Of a stretch of DNA of 64,000 nucleotides, positions 7,113-57,033 are shown piece after piece. Made by a program: the position numbers and the translations under genes. Each line of letters starts with the position of its first letter. Positions within the stretch are counted from its first letter, which is position 1. This DNA is from Candidatus Poribacteria bacterium (GTDB lineage: Bacteria > Poribacteria > WGA-4E > WGA-3G): positions 135,858-199,857 of the forward strand of contig PYJC01000173.1 of the NCBI GenBank assembly GCA_003635255.1, read 5' to 3'. The notes beneath the pieces were generated by a model, which saw nothing but the letters and a program-made list of their open reading frames with translations, ran no database searches and was not told where the DNA came from.

Positions 7113-7118
7113 TATAAG

Positions 7119-7230
7119 TAGCACTTACGCATCTCCTTTTAAAGTCCCCTTGATAAGGGGGATTTAGGGGGTGTTTTTGATAGGGTGTTTCTTAAAAATA
7201 CCGAAATTACTGCTCTTTGCGTAAGTCCTA
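7119..7230. mobile_element. MITE-like element (TIR TAGcACTTACGCA / TGCGTAAGTcCTA)
   Basis: 13-bp TIR with one mismatch at 7119-7131 and 7218-7230; flanked by direct repeat ATAAG (7114-7118 and 7231-7235). Confidence 0.6.
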
Positions 7231-7268
7231 ATAAGAAAATTGAAGGAATCCAGAAGAAAGGAATTACT

Positions 7269-11975: not shown

Positions 11976-12091
11976 TATAGTAAATCCCGAAAATATGTTT
12001 ACACTTTAGAAAACAGCAAACTTCCCCATTGCAGGCGGGGTTTGAAACCCCGCCTGCAATGAGTGTATAGTTAATTATGGGATTTACTATA
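11976..12091. mobile_element. MITE-like palindromic element, TIR TATAGTAAATCCC / GGGATTTACTATA
   Basis: Perfect 13-bp TIRs at 11976-11988 and 12079-12091 enclosing a perfect 17-bp inverted repeat at 12027-12061 (CATTGCAGGCGGGGTTT g AAACCCCGCCTGCAATG). Confidence 0.65.
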
Positions 12092-40282: not shown

Positions 40283-40329
40283 CTGTAGGAGCGAGTGTTT
40301 TTGCTTGGGTATTTCTTGTCGCTCGCGAT
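40283..40329. repeat. dispersed repeat, internally deleted copy 2
   Basis: CTGTAGGAGCGAGTGTTTTTGC...TTGGGTATTTCTTGTCGCTCGCGAT; same ends as 203-273. Confidence 0.85.
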
Positions 40330-47332: not shown

Positions 47333-47851
47333 ATGACACCTGAACTCACCTATAAAATCGCTAAGTGTTGTTTCCCACAAGAGAATGACCCGATTACCGG
47401 CTATTTCAAGGAAGAGGGGACGATCGCTGTCCATCACACGACTTGCAATGCCGTGCAAGACCTACGACCCGAACGGTTATTAGCAGTCACGTGGGATGAG
47501 ATTCAGGCAACCGAGAGGTCAGCGGATCCAGTTGAAATCGCGCCTGAATTCGCTGAACTGGATGAAACCGATTATTTTGTTTTGAAACACCATCAAGAAT
47601 TCGGGATGGACTATTCTATTGTTGTCGCTGAAACCTTGAGGATTCCGCTTGAGGAGATGCACCAGCGACATCGAAAATTGAGAGAACTCGGCGGCTTGAA
47701 ACGCGTTGAAGGACGCATTATCCAATATCGTAAGAATATCGCCAAAGGCAAATGGATTAAGCACCGCAATCATACCTACTACGAACTCACATCGGAAGGT
47801 AAAACGTGGATTCAGGTTTTTGAAAATAAACAAATTGTATCGGGAACATAG
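47333..47851 (+). CDS. RelA/SpoT RIS/zinc-finger-like domain fused to DUF2250-like winged-helix domain
   Basis: IAKCCFPQENDPITGYFKEEGTIAVHHTTCNAVQDLRPERLLAVTWDE resembles the RelA/SpoT C-terminal CC/RIS motif; C-terminal wHTH-like RIPLEEMHQRHRKLRELGGLKRVEGRII. Confidence 0.7.
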   Translation: MTPELTYKIAKCCFPQENDPITGYFKEEGTIAVHHTTCNAVQDLRPERLLAVTWDEIQATERSADPVEIAPEFAELDETDYFVLKHHQEFGMDYSIVVAETLRIPLEEMHQRHRKLRELGGLKRVEGRIIQYRKNIAKGKWIKHRNHTYYELTSEGKTWIQVFENKQIVSGT

Positions 47852-47870
47852 ACCCACAAATCTATAAAAC

Positions 47871-47962
47871 AGGACTTACGCAGCGTCCTTTGCTGGCGAG
47901 GTTTTAAACCTCGCCAGCGGCGTGCGGACCGTAGGTCTTCATCAGCAAGTTGCGTAAGTCCT
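47871..47962. mobile_element. MITE-like element, TIR AGGACTTACGCA / TGCGTAAGTCCT
   Basis: Perfect 12-bp TIRs, inner palindrome GCTGGCGAGGTTT t AAACCTCGCCAGC (47892-47918), flanked by 7-bp direct repeat ATAAAAC (47864-47870 and 47963-47969). Confidence 0.75.
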
Positions 47963-48043
47963 ATAAAACCTATCCTTGTTCCTAAGAAATATAATTGCCG
48001 AGATATATCCATCAAAAGAACACAAAACTGGGAGGGCTGAACC

Positions 48044-49246
48044 GTGTTAAATCAACTGTTGAATTGGCGGATTGACGCACAGCGGCGTAAAAATCGGATG
48101 CGATCTGTCATCTTATTATCTCTTATCCTACACATGATTATCGTTATTGTCTATCTGTTCCTCCCGTTAAATCAACTCGCTGAGGAAGATACGGATGTCT
48201 TTGCTGTTGATCTGCTTGACGATCTGGATGCCCCTAAGAAACGGAAGCAGAAACCCAAACCGCCGCTCACAAAAAAACTGCTTGATCCGAACCAAAAACT
48301 CGCCAGAGATGCAATGGATCGGAAGATTGAAGCCGCTCGAAACAAGATAGATGAAGTCGTCAAACTCAGTCCGCGCGTTGTCCTCGAAGACGTCGAAGTC
48401 AACAAGGCACCGTTGAGTGAGGTCATTCCAGATGTCATGACGGATGCCCAATTGCGCGATGCGGAAGCCTCAAACCTCAGTCGGTTAGTCGCACAACCCG
48501 GACGTACCGACGGTCGCGGTATCGTTACCGGTAGAGTCCGAGCAAAAGGCGATGGAATGGGACGGTTCCGTGGGGACGGACAGGGTGGCGGTGATGGACT
48601 CCTCGGTGGTGGCGGAAAATCCGGCACCTCTGACCGTCTGGGTATCATCGACTTCCTTAATGAATTCGGCGGTCCTAAAGATGTCGTCTATTGTCTGGAT
48701 GTGTCGGCGAGCATGCAAGCAGCTGGACTCAATAAACTGGAATTAGCCGTTAACTCCATCAAAGACTCTGTGCTGATGCTCGGTGATGAAAGCACCTTAA
48801 ACGTAGTAACTTTTTCTACACTGGCGAAAGCCATGCACAGGGAAATGCTACCCGCGAATGCCGCAAATATAGAACGGACCTTGAGATATTTGGACAGATT
48901 CACACCTGAACGTATTGAGTCCAATCGTGGAACTAACATTCTTGCGGCACTTGAAAGCGCGCTGACACTTGATTCTTCTGTTATTGTTTTGGTGACAGAT
49001 GGACTTCCGGTGACAGTGAGTGGCGGGCGTTTTATTGAGACAAACACACAAAAAATTCTTGACACTGTGCGCGAGCAGAACCGCAATAACGCCGCTATCT
49101 ATGTCGTCGCACTTGAGATTGACTTGAAACGTTCTCCGGGAGCGCATCTACTCGTCTCTCTCGCTGAAGAACACAACGGAAAAATAAAGGTTATTGGGAC
49201 ACCACAGTTGGCTGAATTAACTGAACCGGATGGAACAATTGAGTAA
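48044..49246 (+). CDS. von Willebrand factor A domain protein with N-terminal TM anchor
   Basis: GTG start after GGAGGG; TM segment; VVYCLDVSASMQAAGLNKLELAVNSIKDSVLML (DxSxS MIDAS), VIVLVTDGLPV. Confidence 0.85.
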   Translation: MLNQLLNWRIDAQRRKNRMRSVILLSLILHMIIVIVYLFLPLNQLAEEDTDVFAVDLLDDLDAPKKRKQKPKPPLTKKLLDPNQKLARDAMDRKIEAARNKIDEVVKLSPRVVLEDVEVNKAPLSEVIPDVMTDAQLRDAEASNLSRLVAQPGRTDGRGIVTGRVRAKGDGMGRFRGDGQGGGDGLLGGGGKSGTSDRLGIIDFLNEFGGPKDVVYCLDVSASMQAAGLNKLELAVNSIKDSVLMLGDESTLNVVTFSTLAKAMHREMLPANAANIERTLRYLDRFTPERIESNRGTNILAALESALTLDSSVIVLVTDGLPVTVSGGRFIETNTQKILDTVREQNRNNAAIYVVALEIDLKRSPGAHLLVSLAEEHNGKIKVIGTPQLAELTEPDGTIE

Positions 49247-56831: not shown

Positions 56832-57033
56832 GAGTTCGGCAGCTTTTTGCTCGCGAGGCTTGTCCGTTCTGCCCGAACCTTCTCCAACAAACTATGGTTT
56901 ATAGTAAATCCCATAATTATTTGCACACACGGGCGGGATTGTAGCGGTTGGATCACCCGGTTCCCCTACGAAGACTAATACCATTTCTAAATGTTTATAT
57001 CGCATTAACCGCACCGTTTACCCAAGCCCGGTA

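Follow-up and report, generated by a model that had tools for sequence, protein, structure and literature searches.

The 94-bp element at positions 47870–47963 of the window, the 64,000-nucleotide stretch of a Candidatus Poribacteria contig that was analysed, is very probably a type II MITE that combines the 13-bp ends of an IS701-like IS (ISPlag1/NF049921 group) with a gene-free, hairpin-rich interior and that was moved in trans by the DDE transposase of the full-length IS.

Structure of the element and its target-site duplication

Direct reading placed the 12-bp ends, AGGACTTACGCA and TGCGTAAGTCCT, at 47871–47882 and 47951–47962, and the two 13-bp arms of the internal palindrome, GCTGGCGAGGTTT and AAACCTCGCCAGC, at 47892–47904 and 47906–47918, separated by a single t. 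Both the TIRs and the stem are perfect, as the initial annotation had stated. The inverted repeat of the element extends over 19 bp at 84%, of which the outermost 12 bp pair perfectly. The predicted RNA fold had a free energy of −53.8 kcal/mol (z = −8.3 versus shuffles), and the DNA fold gave z = −8.4 versus shuffles. The element is shorter than 500 bp and contained no ORF of at least 80 aa, confirming that it encodes no transposase.

ATAAAAC is directly repeated at 47864–47870 and 47963–47969 and had been read as a 7-bp TSD. The repeat is real, but the TSD reading was wrong. Sixty-seven candidate TIR pairs of the same genome (no more than two mismatches over the two ends of a pair combined; a few of the pairs overlap) were used for flank statistics. 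A 5-bp flank match one base outside AGGACTTACGCA was observed in 37/67 pairs, whereas a 7-bp match in the annotated frame was observed in only 5/67. The 7-bp TSD was dropped for the 5-bp TAAAA on these statistics.

The base skipped between TIR and TSD was C or T on the left in 67/67 pairs and A or G on the right in 65/67. A pyrimidine preceded all 123 exact TIRs of the genome, and the counts were identical with and without Y in the search pattern. In subfamily A1 the skipped base tracked the orientation of the element, with C at the CCATGATAAC end in 12/14 cases. This Y/R pattern and its link to orientation indicated that the skipped base is part of the element. The full ends are YAGGACTTACGCA, 13 bp long; the element is flanked by the TSD TAAAA, and the 7-bp match is a coincidence. 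The annotated MITE-like element of 92 bp was upheld as a MITE, with its extent corrected to 94 bp once the outer C (left) and the outer A (right) were counted; it belongs to subfamily A2. MITE TSDs were 83% AT, and an exact TSD was missing in nearly half of the pairs.

Table 1. Positions in the window of the MITE, its parts and a second copy.
Feature	Position	Strand	Evidence
MITE, 94 bp	47870–47963		sequence, inverted repeat, TSD frame, subfamily comparison
Left TIR CAGGACTTACGCA, 12 bp perfect plus outer Y	47870–47882	+	sequence, genome-wide TIR counts
Right TIR TGCGTAAGTCCTA	47951–47963	−	sequence, genome-wide TIR counts
TSD left copy TAAAA, 5 bp	47865–47869		pair statistics; single TAAAA at empty site (G015, L230)
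TSD right copy TAAAA, 5 bp	47964–47968		pair statistics; empty site
Central hairpin cargo GCTGGCGAGGTTT t AAACCTCGCCAGC	47892–47918		fold; copies genome-wide inside and outside this MITE
Second copy, type B interior (CCCCTAAATCCCCCTTATC..), one TIR mismatch	7119–7230		TIR to TIR 7120–7229
TSD ATAAG of second copy	7114–7118 / 7231–7235		flank reading

Copies, orthologous sites and interiors

The genome of the window has 5,377,724 bases (5.38 Mb) in 178 contigs and is 82% complete. Exact AGGACTTACGCA was found 59 + 64 = 123 times, and the reversed-pattern control was found 0 times, indicating that the TIR is not a chance string. The TIRs were mostly arranged as inward-facing pairs, 70–180 bp apart. 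The further TIR pairs expected from the annotation were therefore present genome-wide (123 TIRs, 67 candidate pairs), and the genome holds at least several dozen copies of the short element. At one locus (L084 3091–3142, G000:C90), two ends pointing in the same direction are separated by 40 bp and accompanied by partial type B interiors, an arrangement that looks like the insertion of one MITE into another.

The ends were found in 54/60 related genomes. The 36 genomes counted as congeneric (own included) all contained them, with 9–435 exact copies each. They also occurred in several genera of the same order and were rare outside the order among the related genomes counted. Carriage by phage or plasmid was rejected: viral contigs did not contain the end pattern of this subfamily, and no plasmid match to the element was found.

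An empty site in a relative, which the MITE reading predicts, was found. The orthologous site of genome G015 reads CACAAACCTT TAAAA TCTATCCTTG (beginning TCTATCC), unbroken, with one TAAAA only and without the element. At this site the sequence of the window is CACAAATCTA TAAAA C–element–A TAAAA CCTATCCTTG. The element was also absent from the orthologous regions of G027, G013, G032, G020, G004, G005, G010, G014, and G029; the flanks of the orthologous regions were 84–92% identical. In G026, the same intergenic region holds a different element with similar ends (L248). For the second window copy, G005 has an orthologous insertion with the same TSD ATAAG, G013 is empty, and G004 carries at this spot a MITE with the same ends, another interior, and its own TSD, TATGA. 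The states of these sites indicated that insertion happened more than once and that the insertions differ in age.

At least four unrelated interior types were found under one pair of ends, together with several further single ones. Interiors A1/A2 contain GGCGGGGTTTnAAACCCCGCC or GGCGAGGTTTnAAACCTCGCC, B contains AACCCCCTAAATCCCCCTTATCAGGGGGACTTTAAG, and C contains TAGCATAGGCTGTTAGCC. The A hairpin was counted 34 times in the genome. Most are in this MITE, several stand alone, and five lie within another MITE-like repeat, whose ends resemble TATAGTAAATCCC; one of these five is in the window.

The element lies between two + strand ORFs, one for a DUF2250-domain protein ending at 47851 and the other for a VWA-domain protein starting at 48044. 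This position, the many copies outside ORFs, and the strong predicted fold (z about −8) would suit a structured RNA or a terminator/attenuator between co-directional genes, kept for its hairpin. We consider such a function very unlikely. The element had no Rfam match; no terminator-like site and no T run were found at the hairpin; orthologous sites in close relatives lack the element; and only the ends are conserved, with unrelated interiors in sister copies and TSDs present. No promoter was found at the element either. The element may have a secondary effect on mRNA, and an effect on the neighbours is possible, though unsupported. Of the 67 MITEs, 18 lay inside an ORF of 150 aa or more, compared with 77% of random positions, ORFs being a crude proxy here.

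Further repeats were observed alongside the MITE. A second MITE-like element at 11976–12091 of the window, unrelated to the MITE at 47870–47963, has perfect 13-bp ends TATAGTAAATCCC...GGGATTTACTATA and carries the same central hairpin, GGCGGGGTTTGAAACCCCGCC, at 12034–12054. Other copies of it were seen at four loci (L212, L214, L217, L221), and a lone further end lies at 56900–56912. The core hairpin GGCGrGGTTTnAAACCyCGCC also occurs without either end pair (L181 1070–1090, L222, L219, L180). A ~23-bp repeat, GAAGAAAyACCCnAGCAAAAAC, was found at 100 places within one mismatch in the same genome (control 0). It sits in the loops of many different hairpins, including interiors of this MITE (L004, L009, L028, L080, L093), and at 40297–40318 of the window it lies inside a GAGCGA..TCGCTC palindrome. 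This nesting resembles the small dispersed repeats of cyanobacteria, which are very small mobile repeats.

The core hairpin GGCGGGGTTTnAAACCCCGCC occurs in this MITE, in the TATAGTAAATCCC-end family, and alone, and the ~23-bp repeat occurs inside hairpins. These observations raise the tentative idea that the IS701-like 13-bp ends act as a general vehicle that repeatedly captures unrelated palindromes, in a nested modular hierarchy with cargo hairpins moving between transposon families. If so, Poribacterial genomes would hold nested mobile palindromes that exchange cargo between transposon families.

IS elements with the same ends

A candidate autonomous partner was found in genome G048, where exact ends lie 1,086 bp apart around one long ORF. 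Its product of ~340–350 aa scored 405 bits against NF049921 'IS701 family transposase' (cut-off 250) and 82 bits against another IS701 model, NF033540, below the cut-off of 150. A search with this product recovered ISs with the same ends in many Poribacteria, in Latescibacteria with copy numbers in the dozens, and in Chloroflexi. Exact TIRs were present at both IS ends at loci L162, L183–L190, L192–L196, and L200. A 5-bp TSD in the MITE frame was present in 59 of the 85 IS copies for which both ends were exact and flanks were available. The IS TSDs were 76% AT, versus 83% for the MITE TSDs. Another TIR pair in G048 (L168) was rejected as an IS and attributed to chance: the ORF that it encloses is unrelated and runs on the opposite strand, and the right end has two mismatches.

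On plasmids, the 12-bp ends recur with 0 mismatches, together with 5-bp TSDs, in ISPlag1 of Planktothrix and in its relatives from Nostoc, Moraxella, and Paraburkholderia; the TSD of ISPlag1 is TTCAA. A Nodularia IS has the same ends and no visible TSD. ISs with identical ends were thus found across Poribacteria, Latescibacteria, Chloroflexi, Cyanobacteria, and Proteobacteria. Phyla whose transposases share only ~50–70% identity have the same 13-bp ends, so a single short end signature can serve to detect this group of ISs, together with its MITEs, in any genome. Dozens of IS701-like copies with identical ends lie on one Latescibacteria chromosome (OY282377.1; most of L274–L334), which looks like an expansion.

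The expected IS with the same ends was therefore found: it is IS701-like, of the ISPlag1/NF049921 group, with identical ends and a 5-bp TSD. Classic IS701 elements are 1400–1550 bp long and make a 4-bp TSD (De Palmenaer 2008, PMC2266710). The partner IS is ~1088 bp (~1.09 kb) long in Poribacteria and makes a 5-bp TSD, and by this length and TSD it is IS701-like, of the ISPlag1 group, and not a classic IS701. BLAST of the MITEs against the 85 IS copies gave matches of ~19–20 bp at the ends and one isolated, weak 23-bp internal match (E 0.007). This confinement of similarity to the ends made the element a type II MITE.

The own genome, in an assembly that is 82% complete and in 178 contigs, yielded no intact IS701-like gene bordered by these ends. 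A decayed remnant of ~70 aa, without TIR, lies at C54:27709–27918. The master IS may have been lost from this genome, or the assembly may lack the part that contains it; ISs of high copy number are located at the ends of contigs here. The sister genomes G003, G046, and G047 contain many TIRs, yet no IS match was found in them.

Movement by a transposase of another family, such as DDE_Tnp_4 (IS5-like) or PF01609, whose ISs are located at contig ends, is very unlikely. A single DDE_Tnp_4 fragment was found in the genome, and it directly adjoins a AGGACTTACGCA end. Its homologues in G004 and G017 (80–94% identical) lack these ends, and the fragment was rejected as the partner on this ground. PF01609 transposases were rejected as well, since none of the listed loci carries these ends as its own. 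At the locus of the fragment (L066 3000–3250, G000:C58), the single AGGACTTACGCA end abuts the C-terminal part of the DDE_Tnp_4 transposase. Short length, palindromic sequence, intergenic position, and high copy number would also suit an IS200/605-derived palindrome or a REP/REPIN-type element mobilised by a RAYT (Y1) transposase; this origin is extremely improbable given the defined 13-bp TIRs, the 5-bp TSDs in 37/67 pairs, and the existence of a DDE-type IS that shares those ends. Y1-type elements are not known to make a TSD.

Probable movement in trans and comparison with known systems

As judged from shared ends and flanks, an IS701-like transposase almost certainly moved the element. The DDE transposase of a full-length IS would bind both MITE ends in trans, excise the MITE, and insert it into an AT-rich, mostly intergenic target via a 5-bp staggered cut, which repair would turn into the TAAAA duplication. 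We infer mobilisation in trans, since the own assembly contains only a decayed transposase remnant. Such action on these short ends would be the standard reading of shared ends and TSD length. The ends, the TSD, the multicopy state, the empty sites, and an autonomous IS that matches the MITE in its ends and in the length of its TSD are apparent in the sequences compared, and from them we infer movement by an IS701-like transposase, sufficiency of the short ends alone, and timing.

This MITE family is a textbook kind of element, a gene-free 'parasite of a parasite' of ~70–180 bp. A very abundant Poribacteria repeat is now tied to a named transposase group, and its 5-bp TSD and empty sites provide a ready insertion marker in an uncultured phylum. 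In the literature searched, of which coverage was incomplete, no description of IS701-derived MITEs or of Poribacteria MITEs was found, and the TIR string was in no relevant paper.

ISAba11 is ~1.1 kb long and has a 5-bp TSD. It belongs to the IS701 family (PMC7326120) and has an IS701-type transposase like that of the partner IS, a likeness drawn by description. Bacterial type II MITEs are shorter than 500 bp, have no ORF, possess TIRs and TSDs, and show IS similarity restricted to the TIR (PMC10969869). The window MITE has all these features, and the interiors of its family are unusually heterogeneous. MITEAba12, of 111–114 bp with a 9-bp TSD, was assigned to ISAba12 by its ends and TSD length, and its TSD is kept in about 40% of copies (PMC6382973). 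The same logic was applied here, with the TSD kept in 37/67 pairs; the IS is a different one, and the lengths are non-uniform. ISPlag1 and the other IS701-like ISs of NF049921 have the identical 12–13-bp ends YAGGACTTACGCA and the 5-bp TSD of the window MITE. The ISPlag1 copy has ~1.3 kb between its ends, compared with ~1.09 kb in the poribacterial ISs, whereas the window MITE has no gene and shares almost nothing with these ISs beyond ~19 bp at the ends.
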